From contig CM035306.1 of the NCBI GenBank assembly GCA_002900995.3, positions 186,001 to 250,000 on the forward strand: 64,000 bases of DNA, given 5' to 3'. Below are positions 35,794 to 63,523 of this stretch, piece after piece. This DNA comes from Ganoderma boninense. Its lineage: Eukaryota > Basidiomycota > Agaricomycetes > Polyporales > Polyporaceae. The notes under the pieces were generated by a model that had not been told where the DNA came from, did no database searches, and was given only the letters and a program-made list of their open reading frames with translations. The number at the start of each line of letters is the position of its first letter. Position 1 is the first letter of the stretch. The position numbers and the translations under genes were made by a program.

Positions 35794-37484
35794 ATGTCCG
35801 TCCCCAAGTCTAACATGCGCTATGGTGAGCATCCCGTATTTCTTCGTCATCTCACCACCCGAGTTTCTACTAGTAACCGCTGCGATTGCTTCCAGTCCGT
35901 CTGGGAAAATCAGGCCTGAAGGTCTCGAAGATCATTCTCGGGACTATGCAGTATGGCAGTACCGACTGGGCCTCATGGGTCCTTCCCGAGGAGGAAGCCA
36001 TCAAGCATATCAAGTTTGCGTACGTTTCTCCAGCAGCCGTACTTTGATGATACCCTGCTCGCACTCGTATTTATCTCACGTCGTATTCTCCGATAGCTGG
36101 GAGCACGGCATCACCACGTTCGACACCGCGAACTGCTACTCCAACGGCGTGTCCGAAACGATTCTCGGAAAAGCGATCAAGCAGCTTGGCCTCCCGAGGG
36201 AGGAGCTCGTTATCATGACAAAGGTCGGTGTGGGACAGTACACCGGGCCAACACGGGGCATGCTCACTAAATACCATGTGATAGGTGTACTTCGCCACTC
36301 CATATGAACCGGCACAGAGCTTGTTCAGGAAAGGCCTGACGCCGGGTGACGTCGGTATCATCAACCAGCACGGGCTGAACCGCAAGGTGAGCATTCGTTG
36401 TCTGGTTAAGAAGAGAAGAGACGGCTGACTCGGCATGTTGTACGCAGCACATCTTCGACTCAGTCAAGGCCAGTCTGAAGAGACTACAGCTCGACTACGT
36501 CGATGTCCTGCAGTGTGCGTCCACTTTGTTTAGTACCAGATCACCATTTTACGCGAGCAACGGCTTAACCTAGGTCATCGCTTCGATTACGAGACCCCAA
36601 TTGAGGAGACGGTGAATTTTTAAGACCCGTCCCCTGACTTGCAGCGAGATGTTGACCACGGCACCGAAACAGATGCGAGCTCTGGACGACCTCGTCAAAG
36701 CCGGCTACGTCAGGTACCTCGGCATGAGCTCGTGCCACGCTTACCAGTGTACGCCCCCGTCTCCGCACTTATATCTTCCGGTCGCTTACCACATACATCC
36801 CCCTCCCCCCTCCTGCGTAGTCCACCAGATGCAGAGTGCGTACCAATCCTCTCGCTCATGCCTAGTCTTTCCCTCTGGCTTACCCCCCGCGCAAACGCAG
36901 CATACGCGCTCGCGCACGACCTGACGCCCTTCATCTCGATGCAGAACCATTACAACCTCGCCTACCGCGAGGAGGAGCGCGACATGTTCCCTACCCTCGC
37001 TCAGCTCGGCGTCGGCGCCATCCCCTGGTCCCCGCTCGCCCGCGGGCTCCTCACGCGCCCCGCCGCGGCCGCCGCCGAGACGATGCGCGGCCAAGGCGAC
37101 TGGTGCGTCTCTCCCTCTTCAGCATCTGTCCAAGTACCTGGCGCACTAACGCGGCGCACGCGGCGCAGGTACATGCCGTACAAGAACCAGTCGACGACGG
37201 ACGTCATCACTAAGGTCGATGAGCTCTCGAAGCGCAAGGGCGTGAGCATGGCACAGATCGCCGTCGCATGGATGCTCTCGAAGCCCGGCGTCACCGCGCC
37301 CATTGTCGGGACGACCAGCCTCGCGAACCTCGAGGACATCCTGGGTGAGTGTTCGTGTGACTCTCCAGTAGGTGGATGATGGTTGATGGGACGTGCAGGC
37401 GGTCTGGACGTGCAGTTGACCGAGGAGGAGATCAAGGAGCTCGAGGCGCCGTATCGGCCGCAGCCGATTATGGGGCATGACTAG
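35794..37484 (+). CDS. Aldo/keto reductase, copy 1 (aryl-alcohol dehydrogenase-like)
   Basis: A tiny first exon (MSVPKSNMRY) from ATG 35794 is spliced to VRLGKSGLKVSKIILGTMQY. Later exons give WEHGITTFDTANCYSNGVSE (catalytic Asp and Tyr), REELVIMTK (Lys), then HIFDSVKASLKRLQLDYVDV and GHRFDYETPIEET (His), completing the AKR tetrad Asp-Tyr-Lys-His. The substrate/cofactor half has FISMQNHYNLAYREEERDMF, GVGAIPWSPLARGLLTRP and APIVGTTSLANLEDILG, where the late serine-rich loop holds NADP(H). The protein ends YRPQPIMGHD at 37484. About ten short introns. The family reduces aromatic or polyketide aldehydes and ketones in the cytosol. It is the most distant of the group from the tandem pair at 56 and 59 kb, apart from copy 5. 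Confidence 0.88.
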
Positions 37485-38141
37485 CCACTCAGTGCGTCGG
37501 TGTCTGGTGCATCGAGACTCTGCTGATGATATCTAATGTAGACGAAGAGGATGAGCGCGGCGCGATCATGTAAAGTTGTAGAAGTGGGACCTTCAGGCTC
37601 AAGGCGAGAGTTCACATAACCACATCCGAGGGGTTCAGACACAGGGGATTCGACGACATCGAAAGGGACGGTTTGCACCTCGTTGTTCTGGTAGAGATAA
37701 TCAAATCAACAACACTTGCAGATGTCAACAGAAAACGCGACTCATTTTTGCCCCAACACAGCACTACAGGAGGTACTTGATTCTTTGTGGAAGAGGCGGG
37801 CGACACGTCCGCGTCTTGCCCTGTCTTGCCGCGGAAATCGACCGACGGGACCGTCCGAGGCTCCATCGCCGTCTTAAGCTGTATCACTGTCTACGTGCGA
37901 CCGTTTGCCATTTGGGCCAATGTTTAAGACTATGATGTTAGCGGGAAGAATTCTGAGAGCAGGCTGGATGGTCTGAGCGGTACTTATTAATGTTATAATT
38001 ACGAGCCGAGCGGCCGGGCACCGTGTGAGATCACAGGTATCAGGCGCTCCGCCACGTTCAAGTTGAACATCGACGCCCATCTCCACCGCAGCGACCTAGC
38101 CAGCTCCAGCCAGTGGCACACACAACCTCATAGGGCACAGC
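37485..38141. other. Intergenic spacer
   Basis: About 650 bases between an AKR stop and a BTB start on the same strand. No coding, RNA or repeat feature is apparent. Confidence 0.4.
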
Positions 38142-39302
38142 ATGCTCTCTGACTCTCGTCCATCTCTTAAAAGTCCCCGCAAACGTCCACGCACTGAAGA
38201 CCAAAGTGGAGAGGCAACACCTAGTATTTCCCCTTTATCGGAGGTGACAAAAGACAAGGAGGTGTGGCTCTTCGATGGGAACATTATCATCGTCGCGGCG
38301 GACAAAGTAGCATTTCGGGTCCATAAAAGCATCTTAGCTCTCAGGTCAGGCATCTTTGGCGACCTTTTCTCTCTTCCAAACGCGGATAAAGCCACGGTGG
38401 AAACGATGGACGGCTGTCCCGTCGTCCGCGTCAGCGACTCCCCGGACGACATCCGCCGCTTGTTCTTAGTCCTATGTTGCGGAAAGAAGTAAGTACACAC
38501 GCAGACCACGCCCTCCACTCAATTCAGCTGACCAACGTCGCTCGTAAGCTACTACTACGACGGGGATGTGCTCACGGCCGTCCCATTTGAGGTCCTCGCC
38601 TCGCTCATCCGTATGGGACATAAATATGCGCTCCAAGACATCCTCGACCATGCGCTGTCCCGCCTCAAGAGATACTACACCAGTGACCTCGCCGTGTGGA
38701 AGGACCCGAACATGCGCGGACGTTATGTCACAGCAACAGACGACGACGCCCAAGAGGTGGTCTCCCTCGCTCGGTTGACAAACACACTATCCCTCCTCCC
38801 GACCGCGCTCATGGTGTGCTCCAAGATCATGACGGACTACTGGGAGACTGAGGACACTGCACGCACCGGCGACGGCCCCATCGTGCCCAGGATCTCATCT
38901 CTGTCTACGTCCGACCAGCTGCAGCTCACCGCGGCGAAGGTATCTCTGACAGAAACGTGCGCCACGCGCCCACTCCACCTGCTTGCGTCGATCCCATCCG
39001 AGGGCTGCTATCGGACGGCGTTCTGCCGGGCAGCACGGGAGGCGCCTCTAGAAGCGTTGCGCGCACGGGGCGTGCTGCTGTCGTTCTCCGACGAAAACGT
39101 GCTCGAGCCGATGGCGGAGCGGTTATGGGGTGACGAGCACTGGAAGAGGCTCTGCGCGAGCTGCCAGGAAGTCCTCTCGGAGGTTGACGAGGTAGAAATC
39201 AGGACTGTGTGGGCCTCGCTTCCTGAGGTCTTCGGTCTCAGTCTCGACAAGAGTACCTGGCCGAGTGGTGGGGCGGCGGCCCCCGGTGGTACGGGACAGT
39301 GA
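38142..39302 (+). CDS. BTB/POZ domain protein with C-terminal cysteine motifs
   Basis: The N-terminus is basic and Ser/Pro-rich (MLSDSRPSLKSPRKRPRTED), possibly a nuclear signal. The BTB core is KEVWLFDGNIIIVAADKVAF, RVHKSILALRSGIFGDLF and MDGCPVVRVSDSPDDIRRL. One intron after LCCGKK joins SYYYDGDVLTAVPFEVLASL. The helical part has IRMGHKYALQDILDHALSRL and LTNTLSLLPTALMVC. The C-terminal module keeps CYRTAFC-like cysteines (GCYRTAFCRAAREAPLEALR) and LCASCQEVLSEVDEVEIR. It ends in a Gly/Ala-rich tail at 39302. It is closest to the BTB gene at 50128, with which it shares DILDHALSRLKRYYTSDLA. Confidence 0.88.
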
Positions 39303-41390
39303 GTAGAGGCCTATGCGTGGTCCGTTTGGCGGCATTGCGACTGTGTGTTCCCCGTTTCACAGGTCATGAGTGGCTGTTGTTTCGGAGTGAGTCCTGCCTG
39401 AATTGGCTCGTGCCTTTTTGTTGCCCGCATGCGCTGTACATAAGAGTGTAAGAGTAGTCACCAGTAGGCTGGATTCGAGTCCAGCATCGAGTCATTTTGT
39501 ATCGATCGATTCCAATATTTAGTACTTGCCATTTACCGCGCCGTGAATAGCTCAGGACTCAGTACTACTCTGCTCAGCGTGATCAAATCGCAAGCATGCC
39601 AGTTATGCGAAGGTTGCCGACTCGTTGCAGCCCAAATAAAATATATATCAGTAATTGTAATGAGTCCGTCAAGCTTCGCGTAGACAACCCTTGGACAATC
39701 CCGACCCAACCATTGCAGCCTAAGTCTGACCTCCCGGCTCACCCCTCGGCCAACTGTTCCTGTCAATCCCAATGCGGAATTGACTCGGCAAGTCGTACCA
39801 CAAGTTTTGCATCTTCCTCGTGTCGGTCCTCACCAGGGCCTGCCGACAGCTCTCACAGAATGCATCCCAGTGTCATCAGCAAAACCGCAACCGTGCTGCA
39901 AGGCGCTACCTAACCTACAAAGGGATGCAAGAGTTCGCAGGCTCCGGCTCTATCCGGCAGGACCCTACAGCGACTAGGAGGGCACGCTTATCGCCTGTAG
40001 TATCCTATCGTATACGATAAGCTGTTGTAGAGTAATGCAGTCGATTGGCAGGATCCGTTGGATAGCTGCATTGCTATGCAAGTCTTCCAGCGGACGCGAC
40101 GGTGAGTTACATTGCGCTGTAGTGCCGCACAGGATCTGCGCCTCCCGCTATGATTCTCATTGGCAGTCAGTGACAACTTGTCTGCATTCCATCCGTGATC
40201 GGCGCCGTCGACCGCCAAATGCTGATTCCACGTACAGCGCCTGAGCCTCAGGACATCCGCCGGGCCGGGCAAATGCCAAGCTATCTCGCAACGGTCTCCT
40301 TCAAGTTCAAGGAAGGAGTCCCCAGTGTGCTGCAATGAGCTGAATGGTACCCCAATGGCTCGCTACCCCAATGGATTCACATTTCGGTCCTCGGCCGGAC
40401 GCGCTCGAATTGGCAGGAACTTGAGGGGGCAAGGTTTGCTATGACGTCATCGTTGCCTCCGAGGTCAACATTTATAGGCGGGGCGTTCGGCTTCACCCCA
40501 AAGCGACTTGTCTTGTTCCACCATCTCCCCCACTCGCACTCTCTCCCACGGCTCGAAATCAGCGTCCTCGATCTCATCTGCCTCTTGCCTATGCATATCG
40601 CCATCTTTCCTCTCCGATGCTCAGGTGTGTCTACCAGCTTCCTTGCAGACTGCGACTGGAATAGGTCACATACCAGGTACGTTTCCCTGCATCAGGCTGC
40701 GTATGTTGGGCGGGCCGCCCGGTCTATCTTCGGGGCTATCGAGAGGTGAGTCAGGGGCTCCGACACTCCGAATGTTCAGAGGTGCGTGTTTGCTGTATTA
40801 CGAGTTTGAGTAAAGCGCGATCACGACCATCATACATCCGCGGCCGCGCGACAATTCAGGTGCGTGCTTAAATGTCTTGGGGAGCGTCCAGGTAAGCACT
40901 GTACTTGATTTGTGGCCTATTGTGGGGTTTGAAGCACTCGGAGCACATCGTTGATCATATGGTGAGTGGGTCATGATGCGCTAGGCTCTCTCCTCGTACC
41001 TTCTCCGAGTCCTATAGTAGCTCGTCCGTAGAAGCACAAACCCACATTGTCATATTTCCTCGCGGTTTGTTAGTAGCTTGTCCGTAAGCTTGCAATATAA
41101 TTAATTTTGTTCGTTTGATTATTATCTGTTGGGGCGATCGCGATTTGCATTGAAGATAAGGTCGGCGTACTCCTCCATTTTCCACAGGAATTCGTAGGTC
41201 TCTACAGCGATACGGTGGGTCAACTATATGCCCCTGCCGTGACACGCAGGATGTTCTATAGAGTCCTACAAGCCTCTACAGTCTGCCACTGGTCGGGCTA
41301 CAAACATATACAGGGCCTTGTGCGCTATGCTGTAAGCCCCTACAGATCGCTACGACATCCTACAGGACCCCGCGGGGTACTTACGATCCC
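39303..41390. other. Gene-poor spacer with a cluster of short CTACAG-type motifs
   Basis: A plus-strand frame at 40441-40749 starts just before a TATA-like tttataggcgg (about 40470) and could be a degraded 5' end of a gene; nothing follows it. Between 41200 and 41400 about nine variants of CTACAG/CTACAR occur in 190 bases. No domain was found in any frame. Confidence 0.35.
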
Positions 41391-41710
41391 CTACCGACCT
41401 TGTAGATAATTACTGGACCCTGCATATCCCTGCAATCCCGCTGCCCAGTTTGCTGATGGTGGCTCAGGCCACAGCCTCTCCGCGATCGGCTTGAACGCAT
41501 CCTCGTCTGAAAGAACCACCGGAAGCCGTCCGACCTCCCGAAGCACGGTCAGCGGCTCCTCCCTCACGGCTCCGCAGGCGTTCCGCGTCGTGCAGCGCAG
41601 GCTCGGGATCGCGGAAAGGAGTGTGAACGCGCGCGTGGCGGTCGCCCGTGTCAGGTTCCCCTTCCCCTCGAGGATCAACGCCATGTCCCGAGGCGAGAGT
41701 CCTGTCAATG
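41391..41710 (-). pseudogene. BTB-gene C-terminal relic
   Basis: The minus strand encodes TGLSPRDMALILEGKGNLTR, LLSAIPSLRCTTRNACGAVR (C-x5-C), EEPLTVLREVGRLP and LSDEDAFKPIAERLWPEPP, aligning with the C-terminal module of the intact BTB genes (compare REAPLEALRARG and LEPMAERLWGDEHWKRLC). The following C-x2-C motif has been lost and no BTB core exists upstream: the minus-strand sequence at 41793-42130 is unrelated. It is a 3' fragment left by a deletion. Confidence 0.65.
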
Positions 41711-42229
41711 GATAACGGAAAGCGCCGCCCGATTTCTCCCAGGAGTGCGCGGACAGCGCGTTATCGTTTCTTTCAAGAGTTCCGGGTTAGACTTACGCAT
41801 ATTTGAGGCTGAGGCTCTCGCAATCTACGCGCGCTGGCTTGCGAGATGGCTGCAATTCGCTGGATACGAGGACGATGTCGTCAAGTGGGTATGATAGGCA
41901 GGGGGTAAACACGAAGCTGGGGTGCCGGGAGACGTTCGCGTCAGCGCCCATCGCCATGAAGACGCGTCGAGTCACGTTGTGACACGTCGCGATTCTCCTC
42001 TCCCGGTGGCAGCGGGGCGGTCACGCTTGGAACTCGGCACTGGCCGAAATACAAGCTCCGACCACACGAGTCAAGAACAAGTCCACCCAGCGCGAAAAGG
42101 TCTTTGCCGTGCCAGTTCATGCGCCTCATGAGGGTTGACCAGAGGGTTACTTTCTAGGATTGACGAGAGGTGCGCTGTGTAATGCCTAGACCAGAGTTAG
42201 CCTTCCCGGACTGATCTTTCCAAGTAGTG

Positions 42230-42905
42230 CTAGTGTCGCGGTTGTTATGACGTTGTACAAGCCACTGGATACGTCAGATATGTCGGCATGAGCTGGTGCT
42301 ATGCATATTAATGTGAGCAGTTGACTCGTTTTGAGTCGTGCGTGGGTTACACTTGGAGTCTCCCAGTCCACCAGATGCAAAGTGCGTAAATCTCGTGCCG
42401 TGCACGAGACGCCTCTGCTTACAATCCGTCTCGTATACGTAGCTTGCCCATCACCTATAAGCTCACACCCTTTATTTCAATGCAAAACCGTTACAGCTTG
42501 GTCTACCGTGAGGAGAACGCTCTATGTTCCCCACACTCAGAGTGCGTCGCTGCCGCCATTTCTGTAGCCAACCGGGCTAATCAGAGGCATTCATTTCCAG
42601 CTCTTCGGCGTGGGCTAGATCCATAGATAGCCTCTCAGTGGTCGGCTGCTGACCCGCCCCGTTGGCGCAGACACGGCCCGCGGGAAGTCCGACAGTCTGC
42701 TCTGGCGATACGAGAACGACGTCCTGCCTGCCGTCCGGACGAGGCGCGTCTTCCAAGTACCATCCCACTCCTCCCTCTCCCCTCCTCCTAACTTAATCTT
42801 GATGCCGTACAGTGTGGATGAGCTGGCGAAGAAGGGCGTTATCATGGCGCAGATCGCACTGACATGGGTGCTCGCGAAGCCGCATGTGTCCGCGCCGATG
42901 GCACA
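42230..42905 (+). pseudogene. Aldo/keto reductase relic, truncated at both ends
   Basis: Fragments match the second half of the AKR genes in order: YVGMSWCYAY (42268-42306, then stop), a VHQMQS splice remnant near 42370, YKLTPFISMQNRYSLVYREE (42455-42515) with a frame break after ENALC, a segment matching the GADTARGKSD loop near 42665, and SVDELAKKGVIMAQIALTWV with LAKPHVSAPM (42811-42900). The NADP-binding end after SAPM is replaced by unrelated sequence. It converges on the 3' end of the dioxygenase gene at 43034, so the junction marks a recombination or deletion point. Closest to copies 3 and 4. Confidence 0.75.
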
Positions 42906-43033
42906 TTCACACGGAAATGCTACTGTCTTCGCATGTACGTTCCTACACATTCTGTTACACGCCATTCTGGTCATAGTCTCCATCCTCGTCTTCGCCAACC
43001 TCGAACCCGTCGTCGTCTTAACCCCTCTTCTCT

Positions 43034-44486
43034 TCATGCACCTTCTCCGCCAGACCGATTCTCGTGGGGCCCAATGTGGACGAGAAGGCAAACACCGGTG
43101 TACAACCAGTCCAAAGACGCCTCGTTCCCATACGCAACGAACGCAGACCTCGGGCCGTCTCTCGAGCTAGCCTCCGTCAGCCAGTGGACGGTGAGTGTAT
43201 CCCCATAGTCGGTCATCGCACACTCCCATGGGTTCTGCGCGTCCCCCGTGAACTCATAGCTGGTCATGCGGACCCCGCCGCGCGCCTCGAGCACCTCCTC
43301 TGTGCTCTCGACGTAGTCCCCGAGCTCCACCATCCGATCGAGCACCATCTCGTTCGCGTCGTCGTCGTCGTACCCGAGCCCCCTGCAGACGAGGCGCAGA
43401 CGCGGCTTCACCCCGAGCTCGATGCACGCCGCGAATAGCGCCGCATCGCTGCCCTTCAGCCACGCATGCAGGCTCTTCAGCGGGCTGGTCATGCCGCGCG
43501 TCCATACCTTCGGGATCGGATACGCGTGGCGAAGCCCGAAGCCCAGCGTCCCGCCCTCCGGCATGAACGTCGGGGAGTTCAAGAGCGCGGCGAGCGCAAC
43601 CTTGATGGCGGACGTGTTTGCGTTCGGGGGCTGTAGCACCTCGAGGCCGCTTGAGGGCGCGGGGGTTTCAGTTCGCATCTCGTAGTAGAGGTTGTAGGTG
43701 AGGGTGAGGCGGTGGCCGGAGAGGACGGGGGCGACCTCGTGCTCGACGTCGCTGAAGAACGCGACGTACGCGATGCGGCTCGTGCGCCCGGCGAGCAGCG
43801 TGGCGGCGTCGAACGTGAACTGGTCGTCCTTGTGCCGGAGGACGAGCGCGCCGCCCTGGTGCGGAGTGGGGAAGACGACGACGAGGGAGCCGAACATGGA
43901 CTGGCTGCGGGGCGTGTCCTTGTGCGGCTTGAAGAACGCGCCTTCGCCTGTCAGCATCAGCGTATGGCTGTCAGTATCCCCTGCGCGCACTACGACAGGA
44001 GTGGCTTGCTCACCATAAACATTCAGCTTGTACAACTCCGCGCACACGCCACGTGTCTCGTCCTTGTCGGAAAGCAGGCCGACCTGGACAGCGTCTCGTA
44101 GGCCCGTCACCTCCAGGTCGAGCCCGGTCATGAAGCTGTCCGCGTCCATCTTCCCGGCCTTGCGGTACGTCTCGTCGAGCACGGTCTCGTCGCCCCTCCC
44201 GAACTTGGCTCGCGAGCACGCGTTTGCGAGTGCCTCTATATCGCTGGGGTCGTTCGGCGTCGACGTCTCTAGCAAGTCGATGAATCTGTGGGTTCGAGTT
44301 CAGCAAGACTCTGAAGCTTGGAGCCTGGATACGCAGTTGCGCCGTGACGCACCGTGCGTTCTTTCCCCCGTAATAAAGCTTGAAGGCCTCACGGGGCACC
44401 TCGAGTGTGCCGCTGCAGTACGGCGGACTCATCGTCAGGGTGGCTTGGAGTCGCTGGAGAAGGGGGAAAGCGGGGTATTCGTCCAT
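43034..44486 (-). CDS. 2OG-Fe(II) dioxygenase (prolyl-4-hydroxylase-like fold), copy C
   Basis: Exon 1 from ATG 44486 encodes MDEYPAFPLLQRLQATLTM and YCSGTLEVPREAFKLYYGGK. An intron (donor GTGCGT near 44352) leads to FIDLLETSTPNDPSDIEAL. A second intron probably lies at about 43945-44012 after LYKLNVYG; it keeps the frame open when read through, but copy D has the matching intron. The core has FFKPHKDTPRSQSMFGSLVV with the HxD iron ligands, ALVLRHKDDQFTFD, then SDVEHEVAPVLSGHRLTLTY with the distal His and the Arg for 2-oxoglutarate. The C-terminal half (TLGFGLRHAYPIPKVWTRGM, LDWLYTGVCLLVHIGP) is specific to this fungal family. Such enzymes hydroxylate proteins or small molecules; the target is unknown. 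It is the mirror-image paralog of the gene at 47633. Confidence 0.82.
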
Positions 44487-44546
44487 GGTGGAGGTCTGTC
44501 GCTAGGTGAGGGTGGCACTGTCCTCTCTCGAAGGTACCCTCTCGGT

Positions 44547-44554
44547 ACTTATAT
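44547..44554 (-). promoter_or_regulatory. TATA box of dioxygenase copy C
   Basis: Minus-strand gatataagtac lies about 65 bases upstream of ATG 44486; the same element precedes the mirror copy at 47633. Confidence 0.5.
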
Positions 44555-44555
44555 C

Positions 44556-46713: not shown

Positions 46714-46739
46714 CTGGCGGCCCCCCATTGCGTTCACAA

Positions 46740-46860
46740 CAGCACGTTGTCCCCTCGGTCAGAAATATTCACGGGCCTCTTCTCTCTTCCCAAGGCAGAT
46801 GAATCCACCGCCGGAACGATGGATGGGTGTCAAGTTGTCCGCGTCCTTGAACTTGAAGGA
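46740..46860 (+). pseudogene. Second BTB core fragment
   Basis: Directly after the truncated BTB gene the frame reads LSPRSEIFTGLFSLPKADES, then MDGCQVVRVL, a piece of the BTB core that should precede, not follow, the helical region. It is about 35 codons long and must come from another BTB copy, brought in by a tandem duplication with deletion or by gene conversion. Confidence 0.6.
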
Positions 46861-47565: not shown

Positions 47566-47632
47566 ACTCAAAGGGTCAGGGTACCTTCGCGAGAAGGCCA
47601 CTGGCACGCCTACCGAGGGACAGACCTCCACC

Positions 47633-53649: not shown

Positions 53650-53707
53650 CGCTGGTGCTCCTTGTAAGGCCGATGGTGCTATATCTCAACGCAGTCGCAG
53701 GGATGCT

Positions 53708-53717
53708 CCTTATATAC
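53708..53717 (-). promoter_or_regulatory. TATA box of AKR copy 2
   Basis: Minus-strand gtgtatataagg lies about 60 bases upstream of ATG 53649. Confidence 0.5.
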
Positions 53718-54181
53718 ACAGCCCGAAACCGCAAACCGGGCTTATAATAGCGCATGTACTTACCCACTACACGTCCGGGGCTCGATAATCAGAAGCTGTG
53801 CTTACAAAACCACTGGGTCGTCTCTCCCCTCTGTATCTCCTTCCCCCGCGATGTCCTTCCATTTGGTCCAGCGCTATGATCCCCGTCGTTGAGCCTGCCG
53901 AGATGCCGAAGCTCGTGGCAACTTGGTCCACGGGAACAAGTCATGGGTCGTTTGGATAAACATAGAAGACAGTAGGAGGCTTTGGGGTGAGCCCATTCCA
54001 CGAGCGCAGTAGCCTTGCGTACAGAACCAAGTCCGTGGTTAGGTTCGGAAGCAGATGAGTCGTGCCAAAACACGTCCAGTCACGGCGTGACTTGACGCGT
54101 TTCCTTGGAGACGCCGGCGCTTCATCTCCGGCCCACCTTCGTAAGTACGGCAGTTCACCGAGTACCAACCGACGGCAAAGC

Positions 54182-55336
54182 CATGTCTTCCGAATCCGAC
54201 GGCCGTACTTCAAGCAAGCGCGCCCGGGTAGACGAAGAAGAAGGGCGTCCAATTCCGCAAAGAGACGAGGACGTGTGGCTCTCGGACGGAAACATTGTCG
54301 TCATCGCGGCGAAGACAGTCGCCTTTCGCGTCCACAAAAGCATCTTATCCCTTCGATCCGAAGTCTTCTCCGGCCTGTTCCTGCTACCGGACGTGGACGC
54401 CGCAATCGCGACGGAGGAGAGGATGGATGGATTGCCCGTCGTCCACGTTAGCGACTCCCCAGATGACATTCGTCGCCTCTTCTTGGTCCTTTGTTGCGGC
54501 AAGAAGTAAGTCGCGGTCTTGATCTCTGCGCACTTGCACCGGCACCTATATGTGTGGTTGCTCATTCTCACATCCCAATGGCTTCCCCCCGTAGTTATTA
54601 CTACAATCGAGACGTGCTTGTCCCTGTGCCGTTCGCGGTCCTCGCCTCGCTCATCCGCATGGCACACAAGTACGCCATCCAAGACGTCCTCGACGACGCC
54701 CTCTCCCGCCTCCAGAGGTTCTACACGAACGATCTCTCCACCTGGCGAAACCCCTCTGCGCGCGCTCGCTACGTTACCGCATCCGACACGGATGCCCCAG
54801 AGGCCGTCGCCCTCGCGCGCCTGACAAACACCCAGCTGGTCCTCCCCGCCGCGCTCCTGGTGTGCGTCCGGCTCGCAGGCAGCTTCTGGGGTCCCGGCGC
54901 GGCCGATCGCCAGTCGCCCCTCTCTGTGCTCCCCATCACCGACCAGATGCGGCTCATCAGCGCCTCGGGACAGCTCACCCAGGCCTGCGCGACACACGCG
55001 CTGCACTTGCTCGCCACCGTGCCATGCTCAAGATGCACTTCGCGCCGTTCCTGCGCGGCGTCGAAGGAGCGGCCGCTGGACGCGCTCCGGGAGACCCCGC
55101 AGAAGGTCCATGGGCGGCGCCCGTACATCTCCGACTTGCAGGCGCTGACGCCCCTCGCGGGGAAGGTTTGGGACGACGACACCTGGTTCTGCGCAAACTG
55201 TGAGGACGCGTTGGCGGAGATGGACGAGAAGGCGATGAAGGCGTTGTGGTCGTCGCTGCCGCATGTGTTCAGGCTTGGTATCGACAAGAACGTTTGGCGG
55301 GGTGGAGAGGCCTCGGCCCCCGGGGCGAGCCAGTAG
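54182..55336 (+). CDS. BTB/POZ domain protein with C-terminal cysteine motifs
   Basis: I chose ATG 54182 (MSSESDGRTSSKRARVDEEE) over the in-frame ATG at 54105 because it matches the starts of the paralogs. The BTB core is EDVWLSDGNIVVIAAKTVAF, RVHKSILSLRSEVFSGLF and MDGLPVVHVSDSPDDIRRL. An intron after LCCGKK (about 54508-54593) joins SYYYNRDVLVPVPFAVLASL. The helical part has IRMAHKYAIQDVLDDALSRL. The C-terminal module is CSRCTSRRSCAASKERPLDA (C-x2-C-x5-C) and WFCANCEDALAEMDEKAMKA. The stop is at 55336. AKR copy 2 starts about 530 bases upstream on the other strand, so the two are divergent. Confidence 0.87.
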
Positions 55337-56018
55337 GGCGGGTGCGATGATGAGGGTGCTATGTTATGTTGTGCGTGTGCAAACTATATCGCTTCACTAG
55401 CACATCAGTGACTACGTCCCATCTGCCGAAAGACTCGGCCAACTCTCCTCGCTAAGCTTCATACCAAACGTCCCTGGCAGGCCCTCGCACTGCCCTCGCA
55501 AGGCTGAGCGCTGAGGACGGTACATTAGCGCCAACCAAACGCGTCATGTCACGTCGTGACGGTTCGCGTTCTCGCCTGTGCACGCATCACGGTCTGTCAC
55601 TGTCTTGTGGAAAGCGGTCGGCATGGGCCGAACTGCCGAGTTCTTCGAATCGCGGTCTGAAAAGGCTGACCAAGCGAATCTTGTCCTTACTCTCCCATCT
55701 CCACCACCAAATCAATGTTATCGCCGTCCTGGCTGGACCGAGCATTCGCTTCGAAACGACCCATGACTCGACCTCGTGGGCCGCCACTGTCACGAACTCA
55801 TCATGCCGGCAACCACGCCGTGTGGATGGAGCCGGGAGCCTGGCTGGAAGGGATGAGAAAGGCACCGAGGGAAGGGGAGTTACAGAAGGCGGCAGAGGCG
55901 GTGAGGCACACAAGTCGCTCTGGTAAGCAACTGGCTCTCGAGTCTGATTATCGAGCCCCGGGACGTGCAGTGGGTGACTCCTGGTGCTATTATAAGCAAA
56001 GTTCGCGACTGTGGGGAC
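55337..56018. other. Upstream region of AKR copy 3
   Basis: No gene is supported. The part from about 55840 onward is similar to the region upstream of AKR copy 4 (59130-59345): both contain gtaagcaact, tctgattatcgagcccc and gacgtgc in the same order. It therefore belongs to the tandem duplication unit. Confidence 0.5.
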
Positions 56019-56026
56019 TATATAAG
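56019..56026 (+). promoter_or_regulatory. TATA box of AKR copy 3
   Basis: TATATAAG lies 77 bases upstream of the end of the leader at ATG 56103. The matching site in copy 4 reads cataaag. Confidence 0.55.
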
Positions 56027-56102
56027 GAGTCCCACCACCTCGCTCTGGCCCACCCACACTCTACCTGCCCAACCACCATCGACCTAACAAGGAGCACCAG
56101 CG

Positions 56103-58162
56103 ATGTCGACCACCACGAAGATGCCGTATGGTATGTGGGTTGCCGCTGCTCACTCGATCTCGGGCTGACGTTGCCCCCAGTCCGCCTTGGAAACTCGGGT
56201 CTCAAGATCTCGAAGATCATCCTCGGATGCATGTCCTACGGCGACCCGCGCTGGCAAGAGTGGGTCCTCCCGGAGGAAGAGGCGATCAAACACATTAAAT
56301 ATGCGTGCGTAAAATCATACCTTGCTGGCTGTATGCGCCTAGAACCTCCCCTTGCTCCAGATACGACCATGGGATCACGACGTTTGACACTGCCAACGTG
56401 AGTGCAGCTGCAGCGCGGTTCTGAGGTTCGTCACTGAGCATCTCCCTGCAGATCTACTCGCACGGCCAATCCGAGATCATCCTGGGGAACGCGATCAAGA
56501 AGCTCGACCTCCCGCGCGACGAGCTCGTCATCCTCACAAAGGTGCGCATATATGCGCTCTTCCGGACCGTATTCATCCCTGATCGCACGTATCAGGTCTA
56601 CTTCCCCATTGCCAAGGAAGGCGCCCGCCTCGACGGCAATCCAGAGGATTCGGGGATTATCAACCAACACGGACTGAATCGTAAGGTGCGCTCACGCTGC
56701 TCAATTTTGGTCTGGAATACAGTTCGTCTCTGTGATCTCAGTCCCTCTGGGGAGCGCTGCACTGAGATCACGTAGTAGATTTGGGTGTAAAAGAGAGACC
56801 CCAGGTCAGCGTTAGCGGTCTCTGTGTCTGATGCGCGGAACACAATCGAAAATACTGCGGATTACAGTCGTTGACTCTGTGCAGACGGGTTGTGGCTGAG
56901 TAGCCTGGTTCGATTGTGGCTAGAAACGATCTCTGCACAGAGGAAGGCGGCTCTCTGCCGAGCGAACATCTGAGCGGATGACATAGCACCCCCGCAGATC
57001 CAGCCATCTCTGCACTAGTTCTGAGGCATACAGAGATTTTACTTTTTCCTGACGCACCCGGATCGCACAACATGCACGACCACGATTGACGTATTCCAGC
57101 ATAGCTTCGACCGAGCAGCAGCTGACCACGATGTCCATTTTACAGCATATCTTCGATTCGGTGAAGGCGAGCTTGAAGCGCCTCCAGCTCGACTACATCG
57201 ACGTCTTGCAGTGTGCGTCCTTGATATCATGTGGCTGAGGCCTTTGCTGAAAACTTGGCGTTTCAGGCCATCGCTTCGATTATACTACACCAATTGAAGA
57301 GACGGTAAGTGACAAATTGGAACAATACCGTGCGAGATACTGAAGGTATATGTATCCATAGATGCAAGCTCTTCATGATGTGGTACAAGCCGGCTACGTC
57401 AGGTACATCGGCATGAGCTCGTGCCACGCCTACCAATGTGAGCCGTCCATCCGTTCTTTGCCGTGTGCGAGCTGAGCTCCGAGTCTCTCCCAGTTCACCA
57501 GATGCAAAGTGCGTTGACGAGATGCCGTCCAGGCCGACATGACCGCTCACAACCCCGCTTGCAGACTACGCCATCACCCACAACCTCACGCCGTTCATCT
57601 CCATGCAGAACCACTACAGCCTGATCTACCGTGAGGAGGAACGCGAGATGTTCCCCACGCTGAAGGTGCGCCTCCGAGATCCTCACTGCAGCTGTCGCCG
57701 GCACTGTCGCGAGCCGGGCTCATCGTCGGGATTCGTCGACAGCTCTTCGGGGTGGGCTCGATCCCCTGGTCACCCCTCGGCCGCGGGCTGCTGACTCGCC
57801 CCATTGGTGCCGAGACCACCCGCGGGAAGTCGGACAGAATGCTCTCGCGGCACGAGAACGAGGTTGTGCCAGCCATCCGGCAGAGGTGCGCCGTCCATTC
57901 CCCACCCCATCCTTTCTTAGGTGACGGTTGTATTGGAATTATCAGCGTGGAGGAGCTCGCGAAGAAGAAGGGCGTGAGCATGGCGCAGATATCAATGGCG
58001 TGGGTGCTCGCGAAGCCGCACGTGTCGGCGCCGATCGTGGGCACGACGAGCCTTGCGAACCTCGAGGACATCCTCTGTTCGCTGAATGTGAAGCTCACCG
58101 AGGACGAGATCAAGTTCCTGGAGGAGAACTACAGGCCTCTGCCTGTCTCGGGGCACGTTTGA
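56103..58162 (+). CDS. Aldo/keto reductase, copy 3 (with a 460-base intron)
   Basis: MSTTTKMPYG is spliced to VRLGNSGLKISKIILGCMSY. Next come YDHGITTFDTAN, IYSHGQSEIILGNAIKKLDL, RDELVILTK and VYFPIAKEGARLDGNPEDSG up to INQHGLNRK. A 460-base intron (56686-57145) separates this from HIFDSVKASLKRLQLDYIDV. The rest is GHRFDYTTPIEET, MQALHDVVQAGYVRYIGMSS, FISMQNHYSLIYREEEREMF, LGRGLLTRPIGAETTRGKSD, SVEELAKKKGVSMAQISMAW and APIVGTTSLANLEDILCSLN, ending PVSGHV at 58162. The Asp-Tyr-Lys-His tetrad is complete. Introns other than the long one are 50-70 bases. Its tandem neighbour at 59370 is nearly the same protein. Confidence 0.88.
56686..57145 (+). other. Expanded intron in AKR copy 3
   Basis: GTGCGC at 56686 and TTACAG ending at 57145 bound an intron of 460 bases where copies 1, 2 and 5 have about 60-80. 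Its right half is clearly related to the 327-base intron of copy 4 (59973-60299): both contain, in order, tagtagcctgg, ggctaga, gcagatc, agccatct and aggcataca. The insertion thus predates the tandem duplication. Confidence 0.65.
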
Positions 58163-58994
58163 GCGTTTGGGCGGAGGTACGATCTATGGTACGCGTGAGA
58201 AGATCCGACGAGACCGTGTACGATGTCATTGGGAAGAACTTAGTCTGCATGCGTTTGAAAATATGCACCTCATTCGTCGGCGTATTTTCCTAGCTGTCGG
58301 GGGCTCGGCACAATCCCCCCCTGATGCGGTACCGAGACCCTTCACGTCGGCCTCCTCTCCCTTCTTCGCCACGAACTCTGTTTCTAGGAGTGAGGATCGT
58401 CCTACTAATGTATGATTCCTTGGCATATCGTAACTGATTTAAGAACTTTTACAGGCAGCAGTCGACAGCCGGCGGCCCGTGAGGCCTTGAGCTTGAGGTG
58501 CTAGATGCACAGCGGCGTCTAAAGTTGTGGCTTGTAAAGCCAAGTTACTAATTACGCCAGCCTAACATCCCGTTCGCCGCTGGGAGACTCTGCCAGCTCT
58601 CTTGATCGTTCTCCCGCTACCCACTTCGACTCCGAGTGGCTGTGGTGGGTGAAGACATGTTTCACCAACGAGGAGCAGCGTCCGTCCCCGCGGCGACGCG
58701 TGGAGTCACGGTGTGACCGTTCGCGTTCTTTCCTCCCGGGGCGTCACACGTGCCAGGGTCTCAGCGCTTGTCGAGCTCTCGCCAGGCAAGTCGAAATCAA
58801 CTCGACGGAAACTTCGCGGCGAGAGGATCTTTCCCGTGCTCCTAACCAGGTCTGATTCGTGCAAGTTATTCTCGTGCACAAATAGAACTGACGAAAAGAT
58901 GCTCTGCGTGATTCCCCGAGTTCGACGCCGGCGCGTGATTATGCCTTCTATGTAACGTAATCGTCGAGATCTCGCCGCAAGTTCGTTGTGCTCT
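58163..58994. other. Spacer between AKR copies 3 and 4
   Basis: No coding feature is supported. The first 250 bases are the 3' flank of copy 3. Short open frames near 58650-58960 on both strands show no domain. Confidence 0.4.
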
Positions 58995-59049
58995 TCTTCT
59001 TCCTCCTCCTCCTTCTCCTTCTCCTCCTCCTCCTCCTCCTCCTCCTCTT
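58995..59049. repeat. Pyrimidine-rich TCC/TTC microsatellite
   Basis: About 50 bases of (TCC)n with TTC interruptions on the plus strand lie about 320 bases upstream of AKR copy 4. The related promoter of copy 3 lacks it. Confidence 0.85.
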
Positions 59050-59369
59050 GCTGACTGACCGGGAACGTCTTTATTTTTTTTAAACAAAGAATGCTGTTAT
59101 CGTCCCGACTGAACCTACTGGCACGCACTGGAAGAGATGGGGGATGGAAGGGAGTTGCAATGGGCGGTGGAGGGACACAAATCGCTTCGGTAAGCAACTC
59201 CTTCTGATTATCGAGCCCCCGGACGTGCGGTGGGTAATCCGTACGCTATTCTAAGCGAGGTTCGCCGCTGTGGACAGGTCATAAAGGTCCCGCACCGCCG
59301 CTCTAGCCCCCGTTGTGCACCCCTACTTCACTTGACCGAACAGCTTCGCCCTAGGAAAGAGCATCGGTG

Positions 59370-61317
59370 ATGTCGACCACTGCAAAGATGCCGTATGGTG
59401 CGTTGGATCTTACGCCGCTCGCTCGATACTGGGTTCACGCTAACATCTTCTCAGTCCGCCTTGGGAACTCGGGTCTTAAGATCTCGAAGATCATCCTCGG
59501 ATGTATGTCGTATGGAGATCCACGCTGGCAAGAGTGGGTCCTCCCAGAGGAAGAGGCGATCAAGCACATCAAATACGCGTACGTAAAGTCGTAAAATGCA
59601 GACTGTATGCGCCTAGAACGACCCCTTTGCTCCAGATACGATCATGGCATCACGACGTTCGACACTGCCAACGTGAGTGCGAGCTCCCCCCTTGTTTGTA
59701 AGGTCTCATTGAGCACTGAGACTAAGCATAATCTACCAGATGTACTCTCACGGCCAATCGGAGATCATACTCGGGAACGCGATCAAGAAACTCAACCTCC
59801 CACGCGACGAGCTCGTCATCCTCACAAAGGTGTGCATATATGCGCTGTTCGTGACTGTATGCGTGCTGATCGCGCCTCTCAGGTCTACTTTCCCGTTGCA
59901 GAGGGAAGATCTCGCCTCGATGGGAATCCAGAGGATTCAGGGATCATCAACCAACACGGACTGAATCGCAAGGTGCGTTCGGGTTGTTCGACCTCCGTCA
60001 GAAAGACGGTTTCTGTCTGTGGCTTCAATGCAGCATTGCGCAGAGGCTCTGAGACCACAGAGATGGAGTTACAGTCGGAGATTCCAACGGGCAGAGAAGC
60101 TGCGGCCTAGTAGCCTGGGTCCATCACGGCTAGAGACAATGTCACTGGACAGAGATAGAGGGCTTCAGCAGAGTGTGCATCTCTCAGCATATTCCATATC
60201 CGTGCAGATCGAGCCATCTTTGCACTGAGGCATACAAAGAATGAACGTTTTAATGGAGTCCGGATTGAGTAGCGGCTGACCACGATTACCTTTTCACAGC
60301 ATATCTTCGACTCGGTGAAGGCGAGCTTGAAGCGGCTGCAGCTCGACTACATCGATGTTTTGCAATGTGCGTGCTGGATGACATATAGTTGACATCTCCA
60401 CTGAAATTTTGCTTTGCAGGCCATCGCTTCGACTACACTACGCCTATCGATGAGACTGTGAGTTACAAATCGGAACAATATTATGCGGGACACTCAAGGC
60501 ATGAGTAGATGCAAGCTCTCCACGACGTTGTACAAGCCGGGTACGTTAGGTACATCGGCATGAGCTCTTGCTACGCCTATCAATGTGAGCACTCGAGTCG
60601 TTTGGAATTGTGCGTGATTTAACCTTGGAGTCTCTTCCAGTTCACCAGATGCAAAGTGCGTCCATCTTGTAACGTGCATGAGACGCCGCTGCTTACAATC
60701 CGTCTCGTAGATTACGCCATCACCCATAATCTCACCCCATTCACCTCGATGCAAAACCATTACAGCCTGATCTACCGTGAAGAGGAGCGCGAGATGTTTC
60801 CTACGCTGAAGGTGCGTCGCCACCCTCGCATCCACTGCAGGAACCGCGAAAGCCGGGCTCACCGTCTACATCCGCCCAACAGCTCTTCGGTGTGGGCTCG
60901 ATTCCATGGTCGCCTCTCGGCCGTGGGCTGCTGACTCGCCCTGTCGGCGTCGGCGCAGACACGGCCCGCGGGAAGTCAGACAGGTTACTCTCGCGGTACG
61001 AGAACGACGTCTTGCCCGCCGTCCGGACGAGGTGCGTCTTCCAAGTTCAATCTCCCTCATCTCTCTTCCTTCCTCCTGACTTAATCTTGATGCCGTGCAG
61101 CGTGGAGGAGGTGGCGAAGAAGAAGGGCGTGAGCATGGCGCAGATCGCGATGGCGTGGGTGCTCGCGAAGCCACACGTCTCCGCGCCGATCGTGGGCACG
61201 ACGAGCCTTGCGAACCTCGAGGACATCCTCGGCTCGCTGAACGTGAAGCTCACTGAGGAGGAGATCAAGTTCCTGGAGGAGAACTATAGGCCGTTGCCCA
61301 TCTCGGGGCACGTGTGA
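59370..61317 (+). CDS. Aldo/keto reductase, copy 4 (with a 327-base intron)
   Basis: ATG 59370 gives MSTTAKMPYG, spliced to VRLGNSGLKISKIILGCMSY. Then come YDHGITTFDTAN, MYSHGQSEIILGNAIKKLNL, RDELVILTK, VYFPVAEGRSRLDGNPEDSG and INQHGLNRK. After the 327-base intron (59973-60299) the gene continues HIFDSVKASLKRLQLDYIDV, GHRFDYTTPIDET, VVQAGYVRYIGMSSCYAYQ, FTSMQNHYSLIYREEEREMF and LGRGLLTRPVGVGADTARGK. It ends with SVEEVAKKKGVSMAQIAMAW, APIVGTTSLANLEDILGSLN and LPISGHV at 61317. The tetrad is complete. Compared with copy 3 it has a three-residue expansion (GVGADT) in the loop before ARGKSD. Gene and promoter arose by direct tandem duplication. Confidence 0.88.
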
Positions 61318-61758
61318 GCGGAGGCACGCTGTACTAGACCGCAAGAAACTAGTCTGCTCGTCTTTAACATACGCACTATAAATCTCATCTAGGGGCTGAT
61401 TTGCTTCCGGCGCGCTTCGAACTGCAGCCCAGTGCTCTCGGCTCTCGACGACCGGCCGAACCTCGAGCAGACGCAGCAAGGTCACGGTCACAGTCGTTTG
61501 GCGTCTCCGAACAGTTTCAAACTCCGGATGGCCTTCGGGGCGTCGGACGGCTGCGAGAATTGCCTGCAATGGGCAAGGTAGAAGCGATATGTTTGTTTTC
61601 TGACGTATGTTCACCGAAACAGGATTAGCGCCCGGAGCTCATGTGGAGACACCCACAGGTGGGTCCGAATGAGGACTCAGATATTTATTGATCGCCGCCA
61701 CATCGCCAGGATGCGCACGTACAGCACAGCACCTTCAAACTCCTACGTCTCAGATTCT

Positions 61759-63523
61759 ATGGCGGCCGTTACGAACTCTATGAAATATGGTGCGCCAGTG
61801 GTTCTTCGAGAAGCGCTGCGTCTGCGAGCTAACCTCCATTTTCCGCAGTGCGCCTCGGAAACTCTGGCCTCAAGGTGTCCAGGTTGATCCTTGGCACGGC
61901 GTTGTGGGGCAACCCGAAATTCCTTCCGTGGGCGACCATCGACGAGGAGGCTGCGATAGAACAGGTCCGTGTTGCGTAAGTCTTCTTCCCCGGCGAACCC
62001 AGTTCAGGACCATCCGCACTGTCATCGCCCATGCTCACCTGCACAGATATGAGAACGGCATCACGACGTTCGATACTGCTGATGTATGCATCCTACGGGC
62101 TGAGGTCGCGGTTATCGCTGACGAGACATTAGATTTACTCCTTCGGTCTCGCGGAGAAGTTCCTCGGGAACGCGATCAGGCGGCTCAACCTTCCCCGAGA
62201 GGAGCTCGTGATCATGACGAAGGTTGGCACAACATACACACATCTCGACCGATGATCATGATTTACTGACGGCGGGGCCTACGAGCAGATCGGGTTGCCA
62301 ATGGTCAACCTAGACGATCCAGACGCTGCGAAGAAGTACGCGGAGCCGGAGCGGTATGGGCTCGTCAATCGACGTGGGCTCAGCAGGAAGGTCCACCTTA
62401 TTCATTCCCTTCGAGTTTTTGAGAGGATGCTGATGACTTGAAATGGTTCAGCATATTTTCGACGGTGTCAAAGAGGCTCTCGAACGCATGCAACTCGATT
62501 ACATCGACGTTATTCAATGTGCGCCCGATCCATGAGCTACTTATCGCATCGGGATCGAGCTGATCGTATTGCAGGCCACAGGTTCGATCCCAATACGCCC
62601 ATCGCAGAAACGATGTGCTACGGCGCATGGTGTTTGTCCTCCAGTCGCTGATTAAGAATTATTAGATGCGTGCTTTGCACGACGTCGTCCAAGCCGGCCA
62701 CGTTCGCTACATCGGCATGAGCTCTTGCTGGGCTTATCAGTGTAGGTTCCCCACTGTCTGCAAGACCTGAATGTCAATGTTCACCGTCCATCGTGCTCTC
62801 AGTCCAAGCTATGCAGAGTGAGAGAATATTTCCCCACACGAAGTGCCAGAATGTCCCGCTGATACAAGACCTTCCATAAAGACTATGCTCTGGACAATAA
62901 CTTGACGCCCTTCATCACGATGCAAAACCACTACAACCTCCTGTATCGTGAGGAAGAACGCGAGATGTACCCGACGCTGAAGGTCCTTATTACGCGTATT
63001 TATACACAGAGAGGATCCTGATGTATTTCCTGCCAGATGTTCGGCGTCGGCTCTACCCCTTGGTCACCACTGGCGAAGGGTCTCCTCACGCGCCCTCTCG
63101 GTGAGGAGGCGAACACCATTCGCTCAAAGGATCCGTAAGTGCACTACGACCGCCTCATTTTCTAATAAGAGCCAATGAACTTCTTCTTTGAAGGTCCTTG
63201 GCGAAGTACAAGAGCGCGGCGACGCAGACGACCCTGTCCCGGGTCGAGGAGCTCGCGACGAAGAAGGGAGCGAGCATGGCCCAGCTCTCGTTCGCATGGC
63301 TATTGCATAAGGAAGGCGTGACAGCGCCCATCGTCGGACCCAGCAGCGTCGAAAAGCTGCGGGGATTGTTAGGTGAGCTGTCTTGTGCCGTGGTATTCTG
63401 TCGCCCAAAAGCCTGAACGTAGCGTAACGTGATGAAGGGAGCATGGAGATTACGCTGAGCGACGAAGAGCTTCGCTACTTGGAAGAATCGTACGTCCCTG
63501 TACCTATCTTCGGTCACTCTTAG
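61759..63523 (+). CDS. Aldo/keto reductase, copy 5 (divergent)
   Basis: ATG 61759 (MAAVTNSMKYG) is spliced to VRLGNSGLKVSRLILGTALW. It differs from the others by GNPKFLPWATIDEEAAIEQV and a longer loop IGLPMVNLDDPDAAKKYAEP before YGLVNRRGLSRK. Catalytic residues: YENGITTFDTAD (Asp), FYSFGLAEKFLGNAIRRLNL (Tyr), REELVIMTK (Lys) and GHRFDPNTPIAET (His). The C-terminal half has FITMQNHYNLLYREEEREMY, FGVGSTPWSPLAKGLLTRPL, ELATKKGASMAQLSFAWLLH and APIVGPSSVEKLRGLLG, ending PVPIFGHS at 63523. The intron after GLSRK is short. It appears to be an older paralog in the row, with possibly different substrate preference because the loops around the active site differ. Confidence 0.87.

Follow-up and report, generated by a model that had tools for sequence, protein, structure and literature searches.

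The stretch of DNA analysed here, from the wood-decay fungus Ganoderma boninense, covers 64 000 nt of contig CM035306.1 (positions 186 001–250 000; hereafter the window) and includes a segment in which genes of three unrelated families, aldo-keto reductases (AKRs), cysteine-tailed BTB proteins and 2-oxoglutarate (2OG)-Fe(II) dioxygenases, alternate. A first-pass annotation had suggested that the three families were repeatedly co-duplicated in a fast-evolving locus, which might be a functional cassette or simply a recombination hotspot. Are they neighbours because they share a task, or by descent and local duplication? In what follows the contig is called C3, on which a position is the window position plus 186 kb, and the genome is 55.6 Mb in size.

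Gene content of the mixed array

Genes were modelled by protein-guided, spliced alignment and refined with closer templates. The segment (35.79–63.52 kb) opens with AKR1 (35794..37484, +), which is intact, with a small first exon beginning at ATG 35794 and the other exons from 35889, and with the intact two-exon BTB1 (38142..39302, +), whose counterpart in a homologous block further along the contig (block B, below) is at C3:262.5 kb. They are followed by fragments of the C-terminal part of a disrupted BTB gene, BTBx (39722..41786, −), which is intact in block B (C3:264.1–265.2 kb), and by an AKR pseudogene (42246..42901, +) that consists of the 3′ part only and has three stops and at least one frameshift. 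DIOX1 (43034..44486, −) and DIOX2 (47633..49084, +), both identified by profile and spliced model as intact three-exon PF13640 2OG-Fe(II) dioxygenases, flank the N-terminal half of BTBx (46028..46702, +), which contains one stop and has been separated by inversion relative to block B. An inverted repeat (42969..49149; six arm pairs of 80–295 nt, 72–94 % complementary) encloses the two dioxygenase genes and is a likely substrate for inversion. Then come BTB2 (50128..51287, −), AKR2 (51968..53649, −), BTB3 (54183..55336, +; divergent to AKR2), AKR3 (56103..58162, +), AKR4 (59370..61317, +) and AKR5 (61771..63523, +). BTB2 and BTB3 are intact with two exons each, and AKR2, AKR3 and AKR4 are intact with 12 modelled exons each. 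AKR5 is divergent (59 % identical to P0001) and of doubtful intactness, as its splice donor near 62614 is non-canonical whereas that of its block B counterpart is canonical. Hence, the five intact AKR genes originally annotated become four clean ones and one doubtful one.

Outside this segment, the window includes two further intact BTB genes (26904..27989, −, and 28999..30137, +) and a BTB pseudogene (25288..25866, +), all from spliced models, as well as two decayed dioxygenases. One of these (627..2143, −; translated match and model) has two frameshifts and has lost the HxD motif, and the other (4678..6126, +) is a fragment with three frameshifts and two stops at 5.1–6.1 kb. The remaining annotated content was thus recovered: two intact dioxygenases, five intact BTB genes in the window, three of them in the segment (as models, with start codons settled for two), the broken AKR and BTB copies, and the outlying BTB and decayed dioxygenase copies. 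Broken copies of all three families are found among the spliced models for the window. An LTR insertion is also present in the array.

Predicted properties of the three protein families

The AKR1 exon block matches PF00248 with 82 bits against a cut-off of 24, several other AKR exons in the window also exceed the cut-off, and all five full-length AKRs (AKR1–AKR5) have D-Y-K-H, which we take to be the AKR catalytic residues. Relatives sharing about 70–92 % identity are often named aryl-alcohol dehydrogenase, though some are called ‘transporter’ or ‘hypothetical’, and versiconal hemiacetal acetate reductase is likewise suggested by the names of relatives alone. The AKRs are probably cytosolic NADPH aldehyde/ketone reductases of the aryl-alcohol-dehydrogenase type. 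In this naming they resemble the AAD family of Saccharomyces cerevisiae, described as redundant and subtelomeric, with two members that reduce aliphatic and aryl aldehydes (PMC5734042). Unlike the AAD genes, the AKR copies here occupy a single locus, in which they alternate with genes for BTB proteins and dioxygenases.

The two intact dioxygenases match PF13640 with 35 and 37 bits (cut-off 27). Both contain an HxD...H...R motif, presumably the facial triad and the 2OG-binding arginine, and H165, D167, H226 and R236 are unchanged across 48 relatives. The fold predicted for close relatives is that of a P4H/PHD-like oxygenase, with PHD2, bacterial P4H, iron uptake factor C and others tied within about 1 Z, and a profile search of the PDB found no sequence relative at E 0.1. 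These enzymes may hydroxylate protein prolines or small molecules.

For close relatives of the BTB proteins, the predicted structure is a KEAP1/KBTBD2/SPOP-like BTB fold, then a helical region of the Cul3-binding type and a tail with four cysteines, which are kept in 39, 42, 43 and 43 of 43 relatives. The likeness to the Cul3 adaptors KEAP1, KBTBD2, SPOP and KLHL11 covers about 150–170 aligned residues, but the four-cysteine tail replaces their kelch or MATH domain. On the basis of these predictions, the BTB proteins are putative Cul3-type ligase adaptors with a tail that may bind zinc. Almost all of the polypore relatives of the BTB proteins and dioxygenases are listed as hypothetical proteins. 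A Pfam scan of ten window reading frames revealed AKR, 2OG oxygenase, P450, GH3, kinase and weak LRR matches and no backbone synthase (PKS, NRPS or terpene cyclase). A literature search that set aside PMC8893723, in which the terms occur, retrieved nothing on this three-family combination or on a BTB expansion in polypores, and the main text of the G. boninense genome paper does not mention BTB, aldo or dioxygenase.

Two homologous blocks meet at an assembly gap

Self-comparison of the contig revealed that most of the segment lies in a block (A, C3:222131–260405; in-window part 36131..64000) that is homologous to a second block of about 39 kb (B, C3:260506–299767). Between them are 100 N (C3:260406–260505), and the homology stops exactly there on both sides. 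Along 85 % of its length, A matches some part of B at ≥60 % identity; the edges differ by 6–7 %, whereas the core has undergone rearrangement and diverges further. For every block A AKR, BTB1, DIOX1 and DIOX2, the B counterpart is the nearest or joint-nearest entry. No counterpart of BTB2 was found in block B, and the B copy of BTB3 (70 % amino acid identity, dS 0.70) joins G. sinense rather than the A copy in the tree (support 90). The AKR2, AKR3 and AKR4 pairs have dS 0.44–0.47 and dN/dS 0.03–0.05, which shows strong purifying selection on these three pairs. Head-to-head AKR/BTB pairs recur, namely AKR2/BTB3 in A and AKR3′/BTBy in B.

Because the homology ends exactly at the scaffold gap, the most likely reading is that A and B represent the two haplotypes of a dikaryon, with the overlapping ends of diverged haplotype contigs joined there. 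They could also be a true tandem duplication of ~39 kb within one nucleus, which would make a one-step co-duplication of the three families real. The adjacency of A and B in the scaffold, the extent of their match and the duplicated BUSCO of just 2 % in the published assembly are in keeping with a duplication, and core dS values of 0.44–0.70 are easier to accept for paralogues than for alleles. However, the position of the gap is that expected for haplotype contigs, edges differing by 6–7 % and a core with such dS values are not of one age without extensive conversion, and the published sample was a heterozygous (‘diploid’) mycelium. We consider the tandem duplication quite unlikely. Against the haplotype reading it must be said that dS ~0.45 for the core AKR pairs and 0.70 for BTB3 are very deep for alleles; the published mean for the genome is about 9 variants per kb. 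The repeated co-duplication first proposed holds only in part, as the sole large block that has all three families twice is the A/B pair, with the scaffold gap between what are probably haplotypes and not duplicates.

Linkage to a mating-type locus was considered as the source of the A/B divergence and rejected. There are no STE3 or homeodomain matches on C3; all 24 STE3 matches are at C7:2.199–2.240 Mb and the single homeodomain match is at C5:2.335 Mb.

Distribution of the families in the G. boninense genome

The concentration of the three families at this locus exceeds chance. BTB matches ≥45 % identical to BTB2 (among at least 122 matches listed) are confined to the C3 cluster, C3:72 kb and C7:226 kb, and AKR exons ≥60 % identical to P0001 (among at least 111) are only at this locus, at C7:2.35–2.40 Mb and at C4:733–735 kb. 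The top-scoring relatives of DIOX1 (among at least 41 matches listed) were located on C3 and at C5:798 kb. The same list includes, with lower scores, an array at C5:3.70–3.76 Mb in which short stretches are still 59–66 % identical. The mixed array runs past the end of the window, reaching roughly C3:289 kb (window +103 kb), and C3:1–186 kb carries additional rearranged duplications.

A second run, AKR-BTB-BTB-AKR-BTB with BTB genes from other clades, was found at C7:2.384–2.400 Mb. Together with the intact AKR active sites, the low dN/dS and the recurrent head-to-head AKR/BTB pairs, it would fit a dedicated cassette in which oxygenase, reductases and adaptors serve one task and selection keeps them linked. 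Such a task might, for example, be the clearing or tailoring of a class of compounds, with BTB adaptors controlling turnover. However, among the matches listed the C7 locus has no dioxygenase and the C5 dioxygenase arrays have no neighbouring AKR or BTB gene; the families also differ in copy number and decay. Nor is the C7 locus independent support, since relatives of its AKRs are on the same contigs as main-locus relatives in five genera (Epithele, Cerioporus, Daedaleopsis, Earliella and Lentinus), and it may once have belonged to this old neighbourhood and have split off from it. The upstream regions gave no convincing common motif; they share nine 9-mers against 1.9 in shuffles, a number inflated by alleles, paralogues and shared divergent promoters. 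A cassette is, in our view, unlikely, even with the linkage described next, in which at least one pair of families shares a contig in ten Polyporaceae genera.

Linkage in other species

Contig sharing was counted for the three families alone, with contigs of one species treated as the same when of equal size, using 116 of 120 AKR entries (the best 120 of 7998 matches), 49 of 93 BTB entries and 68 of 120 dioxygenase entries (the best 120 of 1779) from 35 species or strain sets. Entries without a species name were left out, as were genera found in just one family's list, four of which belong to the Polyporales (Rhizoctonia, Serendipita, Termitomyces, Sphagnurus, Pleurotus, Russula, Laetiporus, Rhodofomes, Daedalea, Athelia, Lactarius, Gloeopeniophorella, Serpula, Mycena, Macrolepiota, Auriscalpium, Artomyces, Marasmius, Phellopilus, Grifola and a tardigrade record). 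Also left out were the G. boninense entry P0226, which has no contig, and the T. versicolor BTB entry P0203, with no effect on sharing.

Of the 16 species sets with AKR and BTB entries, 10 have both on one contig (about 1.0 expected); the figures are 14/25 for AKR and dioxygenase genes (about 1.2 expected) and 8/14 for BTB and dioxygenase genes (about 0.8 expected). The expected values assume a 40 Mb genome, uniform placement and independent species, and the resulting P values (8.5e-9 to 3.3e-15) overstate the significance, as the species, which include three Ganoderma and many Trametes, are not independent and placement is treated as uniform; we therefore prefer the plain counts. Of the 14 sets with entries for all three families, 7 have them together on a single contig, and the other half counts against a conserved neighbourhood. 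No pair shares a contig in nine of the 27 sets with at least two families (Clac, Lbru, Parc, Tcin, Tcub, Tele, Tmax, Tmey and Tver2). The smallest shared contigs are 92 kb (AKR and dioxygenase) and 128, 139 and 170 kb (all three). The adjacency in several genera by which the first-pass annotation would have recognized a cluster was, thus, seen as contig sharing, that is, as linkage rather than adjacency, in about half of the species sets.

In G. sinense, if locus tags track map order, tree-placed genes span the tags 04717–04747 (BTB), between which lie the dioxygenases 04730 and 04737, and BTB 04747 and dioxygenases 04762 and 04792 are arranged in the same order as the G. boninense 215-, 191- and 128-kb loci. 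G. leucocontextum has a fused BTB-AKR gene model (P0131). In G. leucocontextum and G. sinense, relatives of the C7-locus genes likewise occur together on contigs. Contigs with C7-type AKRs are free of dioxygenases only in Ganoderma and Dichomitus; in other genera, relatives of these AKRs are on main-locus contigs, which makes such contigs unsuitable as a clean negative control.

Origin of the array

Contig sharing of this kind is evidence for an old neighbourhood but does not speak for a functional cassette, as an identical pattern is expected from ordinary conserved synteny. We favour, with a probability of roughly 0.62, an old Polyporaceae neighbourhood of AKR, BTB and 2OG dioxygenase genes that was amplified in Ganoderma and is present here as two rearranged and strongly diverged haplotypes. 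Amplification would have proceeded by local tandem and inverted duplication followed by pseudogene formation, and recombination between inverted paralogues, of the dioxygenases and of the AKRs, may have given rise to inversions. Additional AKR copies may have been retained for dosage or substrate range, with the families kept together mainly by common ancestry and local duplication. A joint task of the three families is possible.

A fast-evolving locus or recombination hotspot, as first suggested, is supported by the inverted dioxygenase repeats, the inversion-split BTB gene and the pseudogenes in every family. This raises the question of whether the association is passive only, three tandem arrays having intergrown in a rearrangement-prone region, with the conserved contigs reflecting ordinary synteny. 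The pseudogenes, the inverted repeats and the rearranged duplications along C3:1–186 kb all agree with this, collinearity with G. sinense is what plain synteny predicts, and counts made for these three families, with no control gene family, are thus compatible with it. Paralogues, pseudogenes and an LTR insertion are also features of ordinary fungal birth-and-death tandem arrays. However, here three unrelated families are combined, with linkage kept in many of the genera examined, and sharing in ten genera, even on contigs of 92–170 kb, is not expected when arrays otherwise churn fast. In addition, an exact 24-base pattern detected no telomere repeats on C3, and thus no sign of the subtelomeric position of the AAD genes. 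A purely passive origin is, hence, a credible reading, though short of a probable one.

Skp1, a BTB-fold protein, is hydroxylated by a PHD homologue in Dictyostelium and Toxoplasma. Protein prolyl hydroxylases that work with ubiquitin ligases, PHD2 with HIF and those acting on Skp1 in the two protists, are described in PMC7864055, PMC3515798 and PMC11570480. By analogy, the dioxygenases might hydroxylate prolines of the BTB adaptors or their clients, with the AKRs as reductive output, in a polymorphic module held as ancient haplotypes under balancing selection. Ubiquitin-ligase targeting would then respond to oxygen, iron or 2-oxoglutarate, and balancing selection would account for the rearranged, reciprocally broken A and B. 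The predicted folds, the linkage and the A/B divergence are what point to such a module, which we regard as highly improbable.

The preferred reading is that of an old neighbourhood, and it seems to have been repeatedly rebuilt, with the assembly holding two differently scrambled versions. If A and B are haplotypes, their alleles have diverged strongly in a region without linkage to the mating loci, and gene-family counts from mixed dikaryon assemblies may then include a single locus twice. If selection keeps the linkage, the BTB and 2OG-dioxygenase expansions of polypores would gain a concrete partner and a testable task. Even if the synteny is passive, this is a clear example of a mixed array whose linkage persists in many relatives despite rapid turnover of its contents.

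Gene content of the locus

Protein-guided, spliced gene models almost completely bear out the inventory of the first-pass annotation, in which aldo-keto reductase (AKR), BTB and PF13640 2OG dioxygenase (DIOX) genes are interleaved. Models were obtained at 35.8–63.5 kb in the window for AKR1–AKR5, BTB1–BTB3, DIOX1 and DIOX2, with 10–13 exons per AKR, two per BTB and three per dioxygenase model, and two further intact BTB genes lie at 26.9–28.0 and 29.0–30.1 kb. All five AKRs described as intact were recovered, though AKR5 includes one non-canonical splice donor and is doubtfully intact. All three families are also present as broken copies. In protein searches, the closest relatives of the window proteins were from Ganoderma. 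The neighbouring genes, for a GH3 glycosidase (30328–33595, minus strand) and, on the plus strand, a cytochrome P450 (20670–21335), a leucine-rich-repeat-like protein (18308–19378) and a protein kinase (13214–15441), are useful controls for a synteny test.

Distribution in the genome

The assembly analysed is 55.57 Mb in 74 contigs (55.87 Mb in 112 scaffolds is given for the published G. boninense G3 assembly; PMC11076493). Among the matches listed, contig C3, which includes the window (C3:186001–250000), is the only place where this AKR subfamily occurs together with the close BTB subfamily and the best-scoring dioxygenases. A second mixture, on the plus strand of contig C7, consists of AKR genes (2384.7–2386.5 and 2396.3–2398.1 kb) and BTB genes (2389.9–2391.1, 2393.7–2395.1 and 2398.6–2400.0 kb; the model of the third has two frameshifts). 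AKR copies or fragments (2346.9–2348.0 and 2353.8–2356.1 kb, minus strand) and a BTB gene (2377.4 kb) lie nearby; the genome search listed no dioxygenase match on C7. A mating-type B STE3 receptor cluster (C7:2.199–2.240 Mb) lies approximately 110–160 kb from this mixture (C7:2.346–2.400 Mb). Linkage of the C3 site to mating-type genes was rejected, as genome searches placed none of these genes on C3. Distant BTB arrays at C7:3.38–3.39 and 3.49–3.50 Mb include at least three similarly scoring match pairs approximately 107 kb apart and may likewise reflect a pair of haplotypes, or else a segmental duplication. More distant dioxygenases, with stretches 29–66 % identical to DIOX1, form an array of their own at C5:3.705–3.756 Mb, with no AKR or BTB beside it among the matches listed.

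Seven listed contigs from Ganoderma and Dichomitus carry AKRs that trees place in the clade of the C7 locus; two of these contigs also carry a BTB relative and none, among the matches listed, a dioxygenase. The C3 and C7 loci may nevertheless derive from a single locus, since AKRs of the wider clade lie on main-locus contigs in Epithele, Cerioporus, Daedaleopsis, Earliella and Lentinus.

Linkage in relatives

With equal size within a species as the fingerprint of a contig, AKR and BTB genes occur on a common contig in 10/16 sets, each a species or strain (chance expectation 1.0), AKR and dioxygenase genes in 14/25 (1.2) and BTB and dioxygenase genes in 8/14 (0.8). All three are together on one contig in seven of the 14 sets having all three listed, namely G. 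sinense, G. leucocontextum (170 kb), Trametes cingulata, T. punicea, Pilatotrama ljubarskyi (139 kb), Cerioporus squamosus (128 kb) and Fomes fomentarius (4.9 Mb, weak evidence). The other seven (Earliella, G. adspersum, Lentinus tigrinus, Polyporus arcularius, T. maxima, T. versicolor and D. squalens LYAD-421) have no three-family contig, and five of these retain a pair on a common contig. The comparison across genera proposed in the first-pass annotation finds linkage, but not everywhere: 9/27 sets listing at least two families have no common contig at all. A conserved but mainly passive neighbourhood ranks first among the readings considered. Conserved synteny by itself would predict the linkage equally well, and the proposal that the families form a functional cassette stands well behind.

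In G. sinense, if locus tags run in map order, the order is BTB (04717, 04719, 04721, 04722), dioxygenase (04730), BTB (04731, 04733, 04735), dioxygenase (04737), BTB (04745, 04747) and dioxygenase (04762, 04792); by trees, 04747, 04762 and 04792 correspond to the 215-, 191- and 128-kb loci here and are collinear. One G. leucocontextum gene model (P0131) is a BTB protein running into an AKR C-terminus, and therefore a BTB gene directly adjoins AKR sequence in that species.

Two homologous blocks

The right part of the window belongs to block A (C3:222131–260405), which is followed head to tail by a homologous block B (C3:260506–299767), each approximately 39 kb. They share 93.3 % identity over the left 3.7 kb and 92.6–94.0 % over the right ~13 kb, while the interior includes inversions, many stretches at 72–84 % and a few at 89–95 %. 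The border is exactly 100 N (C3:260406–260505; window coordinate 74406–74505), the sole N run in C3:96–320 kb, and B begins within its copy of AKR1. In the published description of the G3 assembly, every gap is 100 N and the sample is heterozygous mycelium with a mean of ~9 variants per kb (PMC11076493). The picture is that of contig ends from different haplotypes set one after the other, and gene counts for the locus are probably doubled in the assembly. The start of C3 (1–20 kb) matches C3:111–138 kb, mostly inverted and with dioxygenase pairs included, at ~88–94 % identity in its initial 10.7 kb and 67–94 % beyond, and is possibly another haplotype copy.

AKR1–AKR5, BTB1, BTB3, DIOX1 and DIOX2 have counterparts in B; trees and models revealed none for BTB2, nor any in A for an intact B gene at C3:276.8 kb. 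Breakage is reciprocal. A further BTB gene, intact in B (C3:264.1–265.2 kb), is cut by an inversion in A (window 46.0–46.7 and 41.8–39.7 kb), DIOX2 has an intact copy in A but a frameshifted one in B, and DIOX1, intact in A, is interrupted in B within its active-site region by an LTR element (C3:267206–273083). Because its 412-bp LTRs are identical and flanked by a 5-bp target-site duplication, this insertion inside the DIOX1 counterpart is recent.

Divergence between the blocks

Thirteen NG86 comparisons were set up by script, six of which were skipped for model frameshifts; a repeat used closer templates for some pairs and left out AKR1 and DIOX2. Between A and B, dS is 0.09 for BTB1 with closer templates (dN/dS 0.18; 0.11 and 0.32 with longer models) and 0.15 for the 3′ part of DIOX1 (0.22), 0.44–0.47 for AKR2, AKR3 and AKR4 (0.03–0.05), and 0.70 for BTB3 (0.31; 70 % amino acid identity). 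These ratios indicate that the AKRs are under strong constraint and the BTB genes change faster. The core combines shallow with deep pairs, a mosaic that a single tandem duplication producing A and B does not predict and that fits haplotypes with little recombination in the core, or core paralogues differently sorted by birth and death. The BTB3 pair in particular may be non-allelic; in the tree of BTB proteins, BTB3 of block B joins a G. sinense gene before it joins BTB3 of block A (support 90).

Joint work of the three families is unproven, and a reading of them as hydroxylase and adaptor is a bold possibility; the AKR-BTB-dioxygenase neighbourhood itself is real, old and fast-changing.
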